Positions 16 through 5,882 of a stretch of 36,176 nucleotides of DNA are shown one piece after another. Numbering within the stretch: the first letter of the stretch is position 1; each line of letters begins with the position of its first letter. Below the pieces are notes generated by a model that had not been told where the DNA came from, did no database searches, and saw nothing but the letters and a program-made list of their open reading frames with translations. The translations under genes were made by a program, and so were the position numbers. This DNA is from Clostridia bacterium. GTDB lineage: Bacteria > Bacillota > Clostridia > Christensenellales > Aristaeellaceae. Location: positions 1-36,176 of the forward strand of contig JAFUZM010000329.1 in the NCBI GenBank assembly GCA_017476605.1. The letters run 5' to 3'.

Positions 16-696
16 TCACAGAGGTTTCCGGTTCCTCTGGCCGTTGTTTCCTCCGCGTGCTACGTAATCGGCGTCAATGCGCTCTTTCCAGCCACCATCA
101 ATCGGTGCCGAGGCGACGCGCATCCTGGAAACCGTTTCTGCCAAGACCTCATAATTGAGCACGGTCCCTTCATGGTCGCTGTTATAGTTGGCCGCGCGAT
201 CCTCAGTTATGCCAAAGCGGCCGGCCGTTTCAATGGCATCAATATTGGCACCCAGGAACAGAAACTCCCAGCCGTATTTCTCCTTCTGATGCTCGACCAT
301 CTGCTTCACTTTGTCATAGGTATACCGACGGCTGGCATTTTCAAGACCATCTGTCGTGATAACGACGATCGTCTTCTCCGGCCGATCCTCCTCACGGGCA
401 TATTTATGGACATTGCCGATGTGATGAATCGCACCGCCTACCGCATCCAGGAGCGCCGTACATCCCCGTACGTAGTATTCCTTCTCTGTCATCTCTGGCA
501 ACTTTTCAAGAGGAACACGGTCGTAGAGCACCTCTGATTTGTCATCAAAGAGCACGGTGGAGACCAGCACCTCTCCCTCTGTCTCCCGCTGCTTTTTCAG
601 CATGCTGTTGTATCCGCCGATGGTGTCGCTTTCAAGTCCATTCATGGATCCGCTCCGGTCAAGAATCATGACCAGTTCTGTCAGGTTCTTTTTCAT
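16..696 (-). CDS. VWA-domain protein with complete MIDAS motif
   Basis: This 226-residue soluble protein is essentially one von Willebrand factor A domain, a fold that binds a divalent metal and mediates protein-protein contacts. The MIDAS metal site is complete: DRSGS at residues 13-17 (Asp13, Ser15, Ser17), Thr80 in a GCTALLDA segment, and Asp116 in TTDG. There is no signal peptide or membrane segment, so it should be cytoplasmic. The start is supported by AAGGAGG ten bases upstream of the ATG. It lies 76 bases downstream of the macro-domain gene on the same strand, with a possible promoter of its own in the gap. The specific partner is unknown. The family call is firm; the biological role is not. 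Confidence 0.85.
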   Translation of the reverse strand: MKKNLTELVMILDRSGSMNGLESDTIGGYNSMLKKQRETEGEVLVSTVLFDDKSEVLYDRVPLEKLPEMTEKEYYVRGCTALLDAVGGAIHHIGNVHKYAREEDRPEKTIVVITTDGLENASRRYTYDKVKQMVEHQKEKYGWEFLFLGANIDAIETAGRFGITEDRAANYNSDHEGTVLNYEVLAETVSRMRVASAPIDGGWKERIDADYVARGGNNGQRNRKPL

Positions 697-726
697 TTTG
701 AATGCCTCCTTGTTTTTGATGGCGCA

Positions 727-735
727 AGTATAGCA
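727..735 (-). promoter_or_regulatory. Possible extended -10 promoter for the VWA gene
   Basis: Read on the minus strand this is TGCTATACT, an extended -10 element, about 31 bases before the VWA start codon. No good -35 box is visible. Read-through from the macro-domain gene is also possible. Confidence 0.3.
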
Positions 736-772
736 TTCTCAAACCCCTCTGTGGTCGCCTGCAAAGCGACAA

Positions 773-1885
773 TTATCCGTTGAGGCCTTTTCCTGTAAAA
801 GTAAAAAACAAAGCGTCAATCTGGAAGATATCGTACATTTCATTCTCAATGCAAAAGCGGAGAATCAGGTCCTCTTTATTGTTGTTGGTAAGCGCCACTC
901 CGGCGCTGGCCAGCAGATCCCTGGCATCATCCAGATTAAGCCTCAGGGAGATCGCCAGGGCAAAAATCGTTTTCTTCTTTGGAATGTAGTTTTCGCTGCA
1001 TCGGATTTTGGAAAAGAGCTTCCGGTCGATGTTTGCCCGTTTGTATACCTCCGGATCCTTCATCCCCCGTTCATCAATCATGCGCATCAGCCTTGCCTGA
1101 AAGCTTTCTCCAAGGTTATTTACGACCTCCTCAAGACTTGGCTTTTTCTTTTCCATGGGGGCCGGCATAACTTCGCTTAATGCCGGAGCAAACGTCGCCT
1201 CAGCAGATCGAAGCAGGTCCATGCCTGGCGCCATGTTTCTCTCTGGTGCAGATCCGAACCATTCATCATCCGTCTCTTCTTTCAACAGCTCACGTCTGCG
1301 AATGGCGTCAAGACGCGCATCAAACGGCTCCCCGTATTCCTCTGTTGTGTACCATTGTACATAGTTTTCGTCGATGTATTCCTCGACGCGTTCCGTAAGA
1401 CCGGTAGCAAGCTGAAAGGCATTATGGCTAAATACAACCAGAATGACATTCAGCTCTGATTCCTCCAGGTGTTCACGGATGGTGGCAAGCGCAATATCAA
1501 GTGCTTTATCCTTTGGAAAGCCATACACACCGGTTGCAATCAGCGGAAAGGCAATGCTCTCGCAGCCAAGCTGATCGGCAAGCAGCATGGGCTTTCGATA
1601 GCAGGAGCGCAATATGTCGAATTCTCCATGATTTCCATCCCGCCACACAGGACCTACGGTATGAATAATGTACTTTGCCGGAAGCTGAAAGGCAGAGGTA
1701 ACCGCTGCTTCGCCCGGCGCAATCCGCCCGATCTTTTTCCTCTCCGCCAAAAGTTCCCTCGCTCCTGCTGCTTTGTAAATGGCTGCATCCGTGCCGCTGC
1801 CAAACTGTGGCTCTGGATTTGCTGTATTGACAATAATATCTGCATTCACCCGGGTGATATCGTTTCTGATAATCTGAAACGGCAT
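773..1885 (-). CDS. Macro-domain protein, probable ADP-ribosyl-hydrolase, with C-terminal helical domain
   Basis: Residues 1 to about 165 form a macro domain, which binds ADP-ribose and often removes it from proteins or from O-acetyl-ADP-ribose. The ligand motifs are visible: an NTAN segment (family NAAN), a GSGTDAAI loop with its aspartate, and a PLIATGVYGFP loop. A low-complexity linker follows. The last 110 residues or so form a helical, HTH-like domain (around RKLFSKIR and YIPKKKTIFALA) that I recognise as a recurring C-terminal module in Bacillota proteins of unknown role. I chose the ATG at 1885 because GGGGAGG lies nine bases upstream and the macro domain begins there; a GTG at 1927 would add 14 unlikely residues. 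The pairing with the VWA gene suggests an ADP-ribosylation-related function, which is inference. Confidence 0.85.
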   Translation of the reverse strand: MPFQIIRNDITRVNADIIVNTANPEPQFGSGTDAAIYKAAGARELLAERKKIGRIAPGEAAVTSAFQLPAKYIIHTVGPVWRDGNHGEFDILRSCYRKPMLLADQLGCESIAFPLIATGVYGFPKDKALDIALATIREHLEESELNVILVVFSHNAFQLATGLTERVEEYIDENYVQWYTTEEYGEPFDARLDAIRRRELLKEETDDEWFGSAPERNMAPGMDLLRSAEATFAPALSEVMPAPMEKKKPSLEEVVNNLGESFQARLMRMIDERGMKDPEVYKRANIDRKLFSKIRCSENYIPKKKTIFALAISLRLNLDDARDLLASAGVALTNNNKEDLILRFCIENEMYDIFQIDALFFTFTGKGLNG

Positions 1886-2417
1886 TCTCTCATTCCTCCC
1901 CGTACTCTGTTCTTCTTCCCTGCTCACGCCACATAAGACAATAGATCACGCGCATTCTCCGCAGATTCAACGCGTGGCACGTTTGCTTCTCTGTTTTATT
2001 CATATACACAAATGGCTGCCGTATATTCTGCGCAATTTCAGCATATACAGCAACCATTTTCTGCTTATATTTTTCCAAAAACATTTATTTAAAATTTCGC
2101 ATAATGGTCAAATGTAAAACACTGAGAATGCTGTAAAATTTGTATTTAAGGCAATTCAAAATTCACAAGGCAATTATTATAGTCATGTGAATCGTGAATG
2201 AATAAAATACAGGGCTTTCTAAGCCTTTTGTAGATAGCATGTAACCAAAACACGAAATTATACTCATGTCACAAATTAGCTGGAAAATAACGTTTTGGGG
2301 GAACTGTTGTTTCCTTCTTAAAGGTCATAAGGTTTCCATTTATTTCTTGACTTGAGTATAGTTACTTAGTGAAACGACAAAATCTCGATGCATGTTTTGA
2401 CAGTCTCACAGCTCGGA
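1886..2417. other. AT-rich gap without a recognisable gene
   Basis: About 530 bases separate the SecB-like gene from the macro-domain gene. The stretch is clearly AT-richer than the housekeeping parts of the window. Apart from one weak hairpin near 2213-2225 I see no gene, tRNA or repeat. A 64-codon frame at 1890-2084 lacks a ribosome binding site and family resemblance. Confidence 0.6.
2212..2229. terminator. Weak hairpin, possible terminator
   Basis: GGCTT, loop TCT, AAGCC is followed by TTTT on the plus strand and by a broken T-rich tract on the minus strand. The five-base-pair stem makes it marginal. It could end minus-strand transcription of the SecB-like gene. Confidence 0.3.
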
Positions 2418-2849
2418 TTAATTTGTTTTACTTTGACGCTCTGCTTCCATCTGCAGCAGGCTAAAAGTATTAATTGTTGGAACAATAATCGGATTTCTGC
2501 CTGTCTGCGCGGTGATACTGGAAATTAAAGAACGGGCATATGGGTATAAAATCGCAATTGCATTCGAATCCCATCTCTCATCCCATTTCTGATCTTCTGT
2601 GGATTTAAAGATGCCGGCCAGTTCAACGGATACTTTTGTCTGAGCTTCTTCATAGCTTTCACTATCAGCATCAAACGCCCGAACAATAATATTCATTTGA
2701 ATGGATTTATCCGATCTTTCTATTTTTCCATGCGCAATGTTATATTTATATTCTTCTTTGTCTTGAATTGGATATGTTGCCGGGCGAGTAAATTCTATAT
2801 TGATTACCCTGTAATCAACAAATTGAATAATTCCTCCAGGATTGCTCAT
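2418..2849 (-). CDS. SecB-family chaperone-like protein
   Basis: At 143 residues this has the usual SecB length. The second half carries the SecB pattern: a VELAGIF strand (SecB has GGIF), then an ILYPYARSLISS helix matching SecB FPYARxxIxS, then a PIIVPTINTFSLLQ segment matching the SecB LAPVNFDALF region. SecB proteins hold unfolded clients, either secretory preproteins or, in toxin-antitoxin-chaperone modules, an antitoxin. Classical SecB belongs mainly to Proteobacteria, so a copy in an AT-rich block of a Bacillota chromosome is more likely a specialised SecB-like protein than the housekeeping export factor. Its start overlaps the upstream stop in an ATGA, implying coupled translation. 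The client is unknown; the neighbouring encoded proteins are the first candidates. Confidence 0.75.
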   Translation of the reverse strand: MSNPGGIIQFVDYRVINIEFTRPATYPIQDKEEYKYNIAHGKIERSDKSIQMNIIVRAFDADSESYEEAQTKVSVELAGIFKSTEDQKWDERWDSNAIAILYPYARSLISSITAQTGRNPIIVPTINTFSLLQMEAERQSKTN

Positions 2850-3400
2850 GCTGCTTCTCCTATTTTGTCGTCTGATAATTCATGATATGCATTTCCTTCA
2901 AATTCGTAATTCTGAAATACTGTTGCGTTATTTTCAAAAGTATCATTGTTTTGGCTCTTTTCAGTGGTAAATGTCTCCTGATGCAATGCTTGCATCAATT
3001 TGAGCCGAAACAGCTGCTCAGACGCATTATCTTCGACATATAGAAGTACTTGCTCTTTTTCCGGAAGATGATCTTCCGGCACTTCATAAATCATTTTTTC
3101 CTGATAAGAAAAGCTCTGAGTTGAATAAGTATAAACAACTAGTTTCACTGACTGTGAAACCTCTTTTAAAGCATCGTATACTGTAATCTTTTTATCAATC
3201 ACTTTACGGATAATTTCTATGGTTGTTTTCCCTATAATCCAGTTTTGCTCTCCAAATCTCGTATCTGTGCAGTCGCAAAGATACAGATTCCATTTTTCAT
3301 CGCGTGTAATAAATACAATTGGTACTTCATCAAATTCCAGAATTGAGAACAGATAAAAAAAGTTTTCATTTCCTGCAGTAATATATGTTTCATTGCTCAT
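2846..3400 (-). CDS. Uncharacterised protein coupled to the SecB-like gene
   Basis: This 184-residue soluble protein has no signal peptide or membrane segment. The N-terminal 80 residues (FYLFSILEF, PIVFITRD, NLYLCDCTD, then a helix ending KKITVYDALKE) resemble the small beta-rich DUF6575-like domain found in scattered accessory loci; this is a memory-based resemblance only. The C-terminal quarter is Asn/Gln-rich and looks flexible. I placed the start at the ATG at 3400 because GGCAGGAGAG precedes it and it overlaps the upstream stop as ATGA; a longer frame would add 20 unlikely residues. It sits in the middle of a three-gene coupled unit, so it probably acts with its two neighbours. It is a plausible client of the SecB-like chaperone. 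Confidence 0.6.
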   Translation of the reverse strand: MSNETYITAGNENFFYLFSILEFDEVPIVFITRDEKWNLYLCDCTDTRFGEQNWIIGKTTIEIIRKVIDKKITVYDALKEVSQSVKLVVYTYSTQSFSYQEKMIYEVPEDHLPEKEQVLLYVEDNASEQLFRLKLMQALHQETFTTEKSQNNDTFENNATVFQNYEFEGNAYHELSDDKIGEAA

Positions 3401-3822
3401 AACAAATTCTCTCCTGCCCGGAAGCAGCGCCAAGGCTCTGCTCCTTTGTAAAGCCACCAATGAATATGTTTGCTTTCAACATTTAGCTTTGTCGGTCCAA
3501 ATTCCTTTTTTGTATAACCTATAATGATCGTCGCTTTTGGGTGTTTTTGTTCACTGTGCTGCAAATATGCTGCCATTTTCTCAACAGAAGTACTTAATGA
3601 GGTTGAATAATCCGAAAGAGCTGGTTTCTTTTTGCTTTCATTAGGTCTGAGCGCCCCATTCGATTCCAGAATCTTTTCCTGAATCGTACTATAAAATGAC
3701 CTCGGGTCATTCAATCCGTATTTTGCAACGCGATATACATCATGGTATTCTTTGAATTCGCCTCCGTTTTTCAATATCCGATCAAGCAGATCCTCCGGAT
3801 ATCCATCTGGAAAAGCAGACAT
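3397..3822 (-). CDS. Uncharacterised protein, first gene of the SecB-like unit
   Basis: I do not recognise this 141-residue soluble protein. Visible traits are a short charged N-terminal region with helices (PEDLLDRILKNGG), a Ser/Lys-rich middle, a beta-like ATIIIGYTKKEFG stretch, and a striking aromatic C-terminus, HIHWWLYKG followed by PWRCFR. The ATG at 3822 is preferred because AGGAAGGAG lies upstream; an upstream GTG at 3849 would overlap that ribosome binding site. Its stop overlaps the next start as ATGA. The 206 bases before it contain no convincing promoter, so the unit may be read either from its own weak promoter or from the XRE operon upstream. Base composition is AT-rich like its two partners, consistent with acquisition as a block. 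Confidence 0.55.
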   Translation of the reverse strand: MSAFPDGYPEDLLDRILKNGGEFKEYHDVYRVAKYGLNDPRSFYSTIQEKILESNGALRPNESKKKPALSDYSTSLSTSVEKMAAYLQHSEQKHPKATIIIGYTKKEFGPTKLNVESKHIHWWLYKGAEPWRCFRAGENLL

Positions 3823-4028
3823 ATCTTTACATTCTCCTTCCTGATACACTCAGTAATGTATAGCCATGTTGGTTTGTTTCTGTGTTTGGACAATCTATCT
3901 TGTGTGAAGTTTTCTGTTCCTATTCTTTTGCCATACGCAGTCTGTGAATGCCGCAATATTCATGGACAGCAATGGCGGGCTATGCAACTGCGAAATGTGC
4001 TTCAAGGGTCTCTCCGCGAGTAACCAAT

Positions 4029-4373
4029 TCACATTGCATATTTTCTCATAAGATCATCAAACACTTCATCTGCTTCTCGGCCAATTCCACTTTTCGCCTG
4101 ATTCAGAGAATGATCAATATGTTCCCATAATTGATCCTCATTTTGAATGTTCAGAAGGCTATTCGAATCTATGCTATTTATCGAAGGCTCAACAATAATC
4201 GCATGAACTTCTGCAAATTGCCTCTCGTCTAATTTTCCAAGCAAATCTACTGGTTTATTTTCTATTACTTGAAATTCTCTCATTTCTTTGTACACTACCA
4301 TCCATTCGCTTGCCGGAATGTCATTGCACTCAGGTTCGAGGTACAAAGATGCTTGGCTTGGCGTCAAAGCCAT
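4029..4373 (-). CDS. Small protein with antitoxin-like C-terminal tail
   Basis: This 114-residue soluble protein has a middle predicted to mix strands and helices. Its last 35 residues (a helix with SLNQAKSG, then ADEVFDDLMRKYAM) read like the C-terminal tails of Phd/RelB/ParD-type antitoxins, which commonly end in EEVFxELRxKYG-like sequence. No RelE, ParE, Doc or PIN-like toxin is visible next to it, so the antitoxin idea is weak. The ribosome binding site before the chosen ATG is poor; the ATG at 4301 is an alternative start. It follows the FtsB-like gene by 31 bases and ends the part of the locus most likely transcribed from the XRE promoter. Function unknown. Confidence 0.5.
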   Translation of the reverse strand: MALTPSQASLYLEPECNDIPASEWMVVYKEMREFQVIENKPVDLLGKLDERQFAEVHAIIVEPSINSIDSNSLLNIQNEDQLWEHIDHSLNQAKSGIGREADEVFDDLMRKYAM

Positions 4374-4405
4374 TTAGCAACACATAATGACAAGCAACTA
4401 TTAGA

Positions 4406-4777
4406 TTATTTTGTTACCTCCGGCTTTTCAAAAACGGGAATATAAATCGTTTCACCGTAGTAACTATATCCATCATCGCGGGCAAGTTGTTCCTGTTTAT
4501 CAAGAGACTGAGCCTCAGCAAGCTTTGCCGTCAGTTCGCGATTCTGCTCAAGTGCGGCCATATAGGCCGTTCGTGCAGCCTCAAGCTCGTTTGAATAATC
4601 CGGAACCTTTATGAGGCAAAACAGCTCAATTAAAATTCCAATTCCAAGAATCACTGAAAGAATGCGAAACGGATAGCTCCGTTTCTCACAGGTCTCTGCC
4701 CGTGGAATTTCGCGTTCTAACGCACGACCATGTTTATGCACTGCTCTTGATGCAGGCATTGAAATCTGATACTGCAT
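4406..4777 (-). CDS. Single-pass membrane protein with FtsB/DivIC-like topology
   Basis: This 123-residue protein has a charged N-terminal cytoplasmic region, one membrane segment (about 37-57), a coiled-coil-prone stretch (about 62-95), and a C-terminal motif EQLARDDGYSYYGETIYIPV at 96-115. That tail follows the pattern seen in FtsB/DivIC proteins, where an AR-x-GY-x-GE-x-IY segment closes the extracytoplasmic coiled coil that scaffolds the FtsQLB complex. It starts two bases after the protease stop, so it belongs to the XRE-ImmA operon rather than to a division cluster. It could be a regulated envelope effector, a division-interfering factor or a protease substrate; none is proven. The FtsB resemblance is moderate and rests on topology and tail only. 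Confidence 0.55.
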   Translation of the reverse strand: MQYQISMPASRAVHKHGRALEREIPRAETCEKRSYPFRILSVILGIGILIELFCLIKVPDYSNELEAARTAYMAALEQNRELTAKLAEAQSLDKQEQLARDDGYSYYGETIYIPVFEKPEVTK

Positions 4778-4778
4778 A

Positions 4779-5297
4779 TTATCCTACAACGTCCTTCATG
4801 AAATTGCTCGGAACCGAAATGAGGCCGGCATCCTTTCTCATCATTCGAATCTTAACCATCAGGAGTTCAACCGGAACTCCCAGTGTCTGGGCCGCCTCTT
4901 TGAGCGAATATCCGTCCATCAGCAGTTCACTCACCGCATCGTCCGAAAGAAGCAATTCTGCGGCAAACTGATTGGCCTCCCGTTCGCAGATGGATGACTC
5001 TCCATTCCGAAAGACATCCAGAAAATCGGAGACCTCCGCCAGATGCTCATGCAAACAGGCATGCCCAAATTCATGTGCCAATATGACTTCCTGATTACGC
5101 GCTGAAAGATCCGAATTGATCGTTATACAGGAAACGCCGAATTTTCTGATAAAGAATCCCTTGCATGCTCCCGGGGCATCGCCCATTGGAAAATACTGAA
5201 CAAGAATGCCCTCTGCCTCGCAAAGTTCCTGCACGCTGAGCGTTTCGCGATTCTTCCGAATCCTTTGCACACATTGTCGAATGGCATCAAGCGTCAT
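4779..5297 (-). CDS. ImmA/IrrE-family zinc metallopeptidase
   Basis: This 172-residue soluble peptidase carries the zincin motif HEFGH at residues 75-79 (two histidine ligands and the catalytic glutamate), with a likely third acidic ligand in CEREANQFAAELLL around residue 106. ImmA of ICEBs1 and PprI/IrrE of Deinococcus cleave an XRE-type repressor encoded next door, lifting repression after stress. Here the XRE gene sits directly upstream with a three-base gap, so the same pair logic is expected: a signal activates the peptidase, the repressor is cut, and the operon turns on. The pair is widespread in Bacillota. The downstream membrane protein gene is also in the operon, which is less usual. 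Confidence 0.9.
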   Translation of the reverse strand: MTLDAIRQCVQRIRKNRETLSVQELCEAEGILVQYFPMGDAPGACKGFFIRKFGVSCITINSDLSARNQEVILAHEFGHACLHEHLAEVSDFLDVFRNGESSICEREANQFAAELLLSDDAVSELLMDGYSLKEAAQTLGVPVELLMVKIRMMRKDAGLISVPSNFMKDVVG

Positions 5298-5300
5298 TTC

Positions 5301-5720
5301 CTATGGTTCCTCTTTCTCCGCTTCCTCTTTGCAGGCAATGTACGCTTTCATCAGTGCTTCAAAGAACTTATCCTTGACGCTCTGAGGCACCTGACCGCCA
5401 GCAAGAAATGCCGTATTGCGATTGATCAGGTCACTCATTTCCATTGCAGCCATTTCGCCGTAAATATCTCCGGTCTGCTGCATCATCTGATCAATGTTCT
5501 CGCCGAAATTGCGGTCACTGATGCTGTCTGTTGTCAGATACAGAACCGTCACACCCAGCGTCTCGGCAATCTTCTGAATCTTCTTATACCGCGGCACTGC
5601 GCATCCGCGTTCGTAATCCGTAACGGATCTCGGTGATACGCCAATCAAATCCGCCAGATCTGCCTGGCTGAGTCCCGCTTCCTTCCGCGCTTTCTTCAGT
5701 TTTTCCGAAAATAGTTCCAT
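5301..5720 (-). CDS. XRE-family helix-turn-helix repressor paired with ImmA
   Basis: Residues 5-60 form an XRE (Cro/C1-type) HTH with the usual LKKARKEAGLSQADLADLIG helices and a SVTDYERG recognition segment. The C-terminal half includes AFLAGGQVPQSVKDKFFEAL, a tail that I recognise from XRE repressors encoded beside ImmA/IrrE peptidases and that is a likely cleavage or dimerisation region. It is the first gene of the block and is expressed from a near-consensus promoter whose spacer contains a palindrome, the expected place for autorepression. Translation probably begins at the ATG at 5720 just after GGGGTGAGCGC. The DNA-binding call is secure; the operator assignment is inference. Confidence 0.9.
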   Translation of the reverse strand: MELFSEKLKKARKEAGLSQADLADLIGVSPRSVTDYERGCAVPRYKKIQKIAETLGVTVLYLTTDSISDRNFGENIDQMMQQTGDIYGEMAAMEMSDLINRNTAFLAGGQVPQSVKDKFFEALMKAYIACKEEAEKEEP

Positions 5721-5795
5721 GCGCTCACCCCTTCTTCTGTTCTGTGTCTTTTGTCCGCCGCATAAAATGTGTTACGAGGTCGAATGAGTGAGGCC

Positions 5796-5824
5796 ATTAT
5801 ATCGCCCCATATAGGGGCTGTCAA
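5796..5824 (-). promoter_or_regulatory. Consensus promoter with operator-like palindrome, XRE operon
   Basis: On the minus strand TTGACA (5824-5819) and TATAAT (5801-5796) are both perfect and are separated by exactly 17 bases. The spacer holds GCCCC-TATAT-GGGGC (5818-5804), a five-base-pair inverted repeat that a dimeric repressor could bind to exclude RNA polymerase. The start codon of the XRE gene lies 76 bases beyond the -10 box. Confidence 0.85.
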
Positions 5825-5882
5825 GGAAGTTTGGAAGTTTTTTTGAAAAAATCTTCTAGTTTTCTGCTTAAAATGGAAGTTT
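5825..5882 (+). repeat. Three GGAAGTTT direct repeats upstream of the XRE promoter
   Basis: GGAAGTTT occurs at 5825-5832, immediately again at 5833-5840, and at 5875-5882. The first two abut the -35 box and the third lies about four to five helical turns away. They may be additional regulator sites or an A/T-rich upstream element; chance in AT-rich DNA cannot be excluded. Confidence 0.4.

Follow-up and report, generated by a model that had tools for sequence, protein, structure and literature searches.

A probable toxin-antitoxin-chaperone module related to PD-T4-10 beside a separate XRE-ImmA operon in a Clostridia bacterium

A block of minus-strand genes at positions 2418 to 5824 was investigated in a stretch of 36,176 nucleotides from a Clostridia bacterium (assembly GCA_017476605.1, contig JAFUZM010000329.1); this whole stretch is called the window. 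A preliminary description, made from the sequence letters, had located seven open reading frames (ORFs) on the minus strand here, and all seven were found at these positions. From upstream to downstream the order is XRE (P0007), ImmA (P0006), P0005, P0004, 206 bases, P0001, P0002 and P0003. Judged by homology and gene order, the last three genes probably form a toxin-antitoxin-chaperone (TAC) module derived from a pair like the anti-phage toxin-antitoxin (TA) pair PD-T4-10, and represent a probable new variant of TAC. The block consists of two systems, with the XRE-ImmA-P0005 operon as a unit apart from this trio.

The genes P0001 (3397..3822, 141 amino acids), P0002 (2846..3400, 184 amino acids) and P0003 (2418..2849, 143 amino acids) overlap by ATGA at both junctions, in line with the close coupling described before. 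The assignment of P0003 to the SecB family could be confirmed (Pfam SecB, 30.6 bits at a cut-off of 26), and its best PADLOC match was the CmdTAC chaperone model PD-T4-9_C (2.8e-17). A SecB-like chaperone gene and a pair whose TA status is taken from homology alone are thus found in one operon, which supports the TAC-type system that had been proposed for the SecB-like gene.

With P0001 and P0002 themselves no significant match was obtained in the four family libraries used for the window proteins (Pfam, NCBIfam, PADLOC and PHROGs). Relatives of P0001 were identified in the loci L036 (P0009) and L037 (P0012), that is in three of 391 genomes of the class with the window included. Genome searches yielded further relatives in L043 (P0014), L044 (P0015), L087 and L088, and relatives on plasmids are L093, L094 and L095. 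The loci L096 and L097 were reached through DUF6575 genes; gene 1 of L097 is a match to P0001 (2.6e-4), and that of L096 was assigned from its position and the alignment alone. Weak matches with E between 0.004 and 0.01 (L041, L042, L086, L121, L122 and L123) are outside all counts. The PADLOC model PD-T4-10_A gave matches with P0014 (5.2e-6) and P0015 (8.1e-8), and the partner proteins of these two match PD-T4-10_B (1.5e-14 and 2.6e-10), PDC-M63B and Pfam DUF6575 (1.2e-30 and 2.2e-23). In profile-profile comparison, P0001 with P0009 was aligned to the ten other first genes with 97.0% probability (E 1.3e-10), and for P0002 with P0010, the second gene of L036, the alignment joined residues 8-121 of P0002 to the N-terminal DUF6575 domain at 94.6% (E 6.5e-8). 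Column-shuffled controls (50 each) reached at best 0.5% for the first gene and 2.0% for the second, and crossed comparisons 0.1%. These values point to genes 1 and 2 as distant homologues of PD-T4-10A and of the N-terminal part of PD-T4-10B; PD-T4-10B is here taken to be the DUF6575 protein, from lengths and DUF6575 matches (PADLOC model PD-T4-10_B). In P0002 the N-terminal part is a DUF6575-like domain (about residues 8-121), followed by an acidic tail with a net charge of -9, which ends in EAA.

The shortening of the partner coincides with the presence of SecB. Twelve loci were compared, namely the window, L036 and ten two-gene loci; the sample is small and most were found through gene 1, so that they give no measure of frequency. 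In the two-gene loci the partner has 379-432 amino acids (counted from the first start codon), no partner ends in AA (0/10), and no SecB-like ORF was detected in the retrieved stretches of 5 to 13 kb (0/10). Both trio loci show a partner of 184 or 203 amino acids with an AA end (EAA and YAA) and SecB as the next gene; as the SecB profile used for this comparison was built with both trio chaperones, the match in L036 follows by construction. About the last 240 residues of PD-T4-10B-like partners are missing from P0002. The comparison shows the change as a swap, in which a part of the partner was lost and a degron-like tail and a chaperone were gained. L036, whose genome belongs to a different family of the class, keeps the trio in the same order, with identities to the window of 34%, 28% and 22% for genes 1, 2 and 3. 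Within its own family the pair was found in one of 38 genomes, that of L036 itself.

The type of chaperone was examined by means of its relatives. With the CmdTAC chaperone model, SecB-like genes were found in 67 of 396 genomes of the order. Among 29 fetched SecB-like loci, that of the window excluded, ten were classified as TAC and the rest as stand-alone; this call was made by eye from upstream genes similar to RelE/HigB, HicB or MqsA. Antitoxins with an AA end occur in three of these ten TAC loci. A tree of 31 SecB-like sequences places P0003 in a clade of seven with a support of 0.976. The clade member L010, first labelled stand-alone, has an MqsA-like protein directly upstream, and therefore all seven members are read as TAC chaperones.

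The trio looks like a self-restraint system of the bacterium, probably aimed at phages. P0001 is read as the toxin and P0002 as the antitoxin because of the TAC anatomy and because Arg, Ser, Gly, His and Trp are invariant in the 12 members of the gene 1 family (with Arg31, Ser75 and His119 in P0001), whereas among the columns displayed only Phe, Leu and Pro are invariant across the 12 members of the gene 2 domain. P0001 would then be a small enzyme-like toxin with a presumed target, and the DUF6575-like domain of P0002 would bind it. The C-terminus of P0002 may act as a chaperone-addiction tail and carry a protease signal (...EAA); P0003 would hold this tail and so allow the antitoxin to fold and to persist. 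If a phage protein competed for the chaperone, the tail would be exposed; the antitoxin would then be degraded, presumably by ClpP as in the case of CmdA, and the toxin set free in this way would halt growth before phage release. In CmdTAC, CmdA ends in LAA and undergoes degradation by ClpP; the toxin becomes free when the T4 capsid protein draws the chaperone away (PMC11618068; this and all other literature is cited from excerpts). An excess of CmdC is reported to abolish the protection.

If this is true, the PD-T4-10A family would be a toxic enzyme neutralised by the N-terminal domain of DUF6575, contrary to the published assignment, and the trio would give a genetic argument for assigning the toxin within the PD-T4-10/DUF6575 system, which has been little studied. 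In the literature covered, the TA families named together with SecB are HigBA, HicAB, MqsRA and CmdTA (among the sources PMC5105189, in the part available). The pair P0001/P0002 is not among them; the TAC study of Mets et al. 2024 may list more. Within the searched library PD-T4-10 and DUF6575 were each named solely in PMC9519451. The trio suggests that chaperone addiction can be acquired by a TA pair with no relationship to the pairs that this literature associates with SecB. It is tentatively proposed that it stands for a further class of chaperone-addicted toxin systems with a PD-T4-10/DUF6575 pair as their basis; about 240 residues of the partner would have given way to a SecB-like sensor and a degron tail.

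Several points weigh against a TAC module of this kind. P0001 and P0002 match no PD-T4-10 model directly, and the link runs through relatives. Only two trio loci are known. The tails of P0002 and P0010 end in AA, and the SecB-free relatives are longer at the C-terminus, so that the tail would be a replacement and not an added extension, contrary to a plain TAC. P0011, the chaperone of L036, lies outside the clade of P0003, at a weak support of 0.49 and with 22% identity to P0003; this split argues that the trio did not arise just once in recent times, or else it reflects an exchange of chaperones. No usable fold was obtained for P0001 or P0002 from single-sequence structure models (mean predicted local distance difference test of 52.4 and 35.9, respectively). 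Finally, the published polarity of PD-T4-10 is opposite to that proposed for the trio: according to the excerpts of PMC9519451, PD-T4-10B is toxic and PD-T4-10A neutralises it, A could not be deleted, and the loss of B abolishes resistance to T4. Three explanations offer themselves: the toxicity of B may reside in the region that the trio lacks, the two forms may distribute the roles differently, or the interpretation as a TAC may be mistaken.

These published assays are the reason to consider an inverted arrangement, in which P0002 acts as toxin and P0001 as antitoxin, while the SecB-like protein governs folding or turnover of the toxin. With the published polarity the degron-like tail would therefore sit on the toxin, and removal of the chaperone would silence the system. 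We regard this arrangement as unlikely, since the approximately 240 C-terminal residues of PD-T4-10B-like partners are missing from P0002, its tail ends like a degron, by which loss of the chaperone would switch a degradable toxin off, and the invariant residues of its domain in the columns displayed are Phe, Leu and Pro as against Arg, Ser and His in gene 1. Orphan neutralisers in phages, in the form of a DUF6575 protein, were looked for with regard to the polarity and none was found.

Much less probable is that P0003 is a housekeeping SecB for export or general chaperone function which stands behind two unrelated genes by chance. SecB-like genes appear to stand alone in many genomes of the same order (L013, L014, L016, L027, L029, L030 and similar loci), and some of them are preceded by genes that, by eye, are cyclase-like or encode YitT-like membrane proteins. 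Nevertheless, P0003 remained below the cut-offs of all five NCBIfam equivalogs for export SecB that it touched, with a best score of 28.4 against 143 bits and 27.3 against 102.8 bits for TIGR00809. Its genome contains no second copy (E <= 0.001), it clusters with TAC-type chaperones, and the same two genes accompany SecB in a second family (L036).

The XRE-ImmA-P0005 operon and the trio were also found independently of each other. Relatives of P0006 at 1e-20 occur in five of 29 genomes of the genus, window included. XRE, ImmA and P0005 are present together in L089, L090 and L091; the contig of L092 starts at ImmA, so that the XRE gene is cut off, and P0005 follows. P0005 is thus located after ImmA in four of four congener loci. 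In these four stretches of 6 to 12 kb no match to P0001, P0002 or P0003 and no SecB-like ORF was detected, save for a 57-amino-acid ORF antisense to ImmA in L092, which matched P0010 at 3.9e-4 and was taken as chance. P0001 itself was found in one of 60 relatives, the genome of the window. Conversely, no match to XRE, ImmA or P0005 was obtained in 12.3 kb of L036. The preliminary description had joined an XRE/ImmA pair, an envelope protein and the SecB trio in one new module; since both parts occur independently, this single-module reading was rejected. Its caution that the gap at 3823-4028, which is present with 206 bases, could divide two systems was right.

The composition differs as well. 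The trio has a guanine-cytosine (GC) content of 37.4%, compared to 49.5% for the window, and ranks 32 among 1391 overlapping windows of the same length. The proposal of an AT-rich patch holds for the trio and for P0004 (38.6%), and not for XRE-ImmA-P0005 with 48.2%, near the value of the window. By its composition the trio looks acquired, and the XRE operon does not. The least probable reading is that XRE/ImmA controls the trio or senses for it across the gap: both lie adjacent on the same strand, the minus strand of the gap has no strong promoter match, and in L044 two XRE-type genes (matches to P0007 of about 1e-5) lie less than 3 kb from a PD-T4-10-like pair, which carries little weight as XRE genes are common, whereas four congener loci possess the operon without the trio, L036 possesses the trio without the operon, and the GC contents of the two differ.

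The XRE-ImmA-P0005 operon is probably a separate self-repressed regulatory unit. P0007 (5301..5720) was verified as an XRE repressor by Pfam HTH_3 (1.8e-16), and P0006 (4779..5297), described before as a protease, as an M78/ImmA-type metallopeptidase (Peptidase_M78, 1.5e-19), whose sequence contains HEFGH. The repressor might be inactivated by this peptidase. P0005 (4406..4777) has a hydrophobic segment followed by a charged helix-like stretch; its former label as FtsB-like had to be dropped, as Pfam DivIC was matched with 15.8 bits at a cut-off of 28.9. Ahead of the operon a promoter and a probable self-repression site are located at 5796..5882 on the minus strand. They comprise a 12/12 sigma-70 match at 5824-5796 and, just upstream of it, three copies of the octamer AAACTTCC/GGAAGTTT at 5825, 5833 and 5875, with no other copy in the 36 kb. 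Octamers were counted in the window and in the promoters of L090 and L091, which contain one and three copies, respectively; 1000 letter shuffles gave means of 0.008 to 0.014. The repeats resemble an operator for autorepression by the XRE protein.

P0004 (4029..4373, minus strand, 114 amino acids) stands between both systems and so far belongs to neither. It has no match in the four family libraries, which leaves the antitoxin-like tail ascribed to it without family support, and none within L089-L092 or L036. Among the 29 genomes of the genus one weak match (E 1.8e-4) was obtained besides the window. P0004 is AT-rich like the trio, and its C-terminus recalls antitoxin tails by eye.

Further searches concerned folds and mobile elements. 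An ADP-ribosyltransferase fold of P0001, considered for YR and STS-like letters, was unsupported, with none of 71 fold matches at E <= 0.001. Sequences of solved structures gave no match with P0003, nothing with P0015 and alignment A2, and matches at chance level with alignment A3 (best E 0.38). Viral contigs searched with P0003, P0002 and alignments A1 and A4 contained no relative; a match of P0001 on a viral contig (L003) was a chance match inside an unrelated ORF. No relative was detected in phages with P0001, P0012, P0014, the N-terminal part of the L044 DUF6575 protein and P0016, or in a plasmid search with P0001, P0012 and P0014. One plasmid carries a short stand-alone DUF6575 gene of 134 amino acids (L098, 2947-3351) with no adjoining A-type gene in the annotation, which is outside the locus counts.

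In L036 a DUF262/GmrSD-like ORF (by eye, 3639-5120) is located at a distance of a few kb from the trio and is surrounded by antirepressor-like genes; the trio may sit there in a mobile or defence region. In L087 two cytosine-methyltransferase-like genes and restriction-type genes (by eye, 197-4553) precede the PD-T4-10-like pair. Just downstream of the trio in the window, the minus strand encodes a von Willebrand A-type protein (16-696; PHROG 7371, 1.8e-56) as well as a macrodomain protein that has an additional region at its C-terminus (773-1927). A match to the von Willebrand A-type protein lies near the macrodomain homologue in L112 and L117. The macrodomain gene was considered as a linked part that could reverse ADP-ribosylation and was rejected, because its distribution is unlike that of P0001: homologues occur in 17 of 29 genomes of the genus at 1e-40, window included, and P0001 in one of 60 relatives. 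In eight regions fetched for the macrodomain gene no match to P0001, P0002 or P0003 was found among non-overlapping ORFs of at least 60 amino acids.

Regarding known systems, the first operon belongs to the XRE-ImmA/IrrE regulator pairs, of which ICEBs1 is an example, as an XRE repressor is followed by an M78 peptidase in one operon. It differs from them by the third, membrane-type gene P0005 after ImmA, as in the four congener loci. With CmdTAC (formerly PD-T4-9) the trio shares the three-gene order with the SecB-like chaperone last, the match of P0003 to the PADLOC chaperone model, and the AA end of P0002, comparable to LAA in CmdA (PMC11618068, from the part available). In contrast, its genes 1 and 2 match no CmdT or CmdA model; for P0001, P0009, P0012, P0014 and P0015 no match to PD-T4-9_A was obtained at E <= 1. 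From PD-T4-10, the DUF6575 anti-phage TA pair, with which genes 1 and 2 appear distantly homologous over A and the N-terminal part of B, the trio differs in the absence of a full-length B, as the 184 amino acids of P0002 align to the N-terminal domain alone, in the AA-ending tail of the partner and the SecB gene, and in its reversed proposed polarity. TAC systems of the HigBA, HicAB and MqsRA type likewise have an antitoxin with a C-terminal extension followed by a SecB-like chaperone (PMC5105189, in excerpt), whereas in the four-library family search the trio showed no helix-turn-helix, HicB or MqsA antitoxin and no RelE, HigB, HicA or MqsR toxin. In those systems the chaperone binds the C-terminal extension of the antitoxin, which is missing from chaperone-independent relatives (PMC5105189 and PMC6377645, in the parts available). 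As in published TACs, the proposed antitoxin gene precedes the chaperone gene in the trio.

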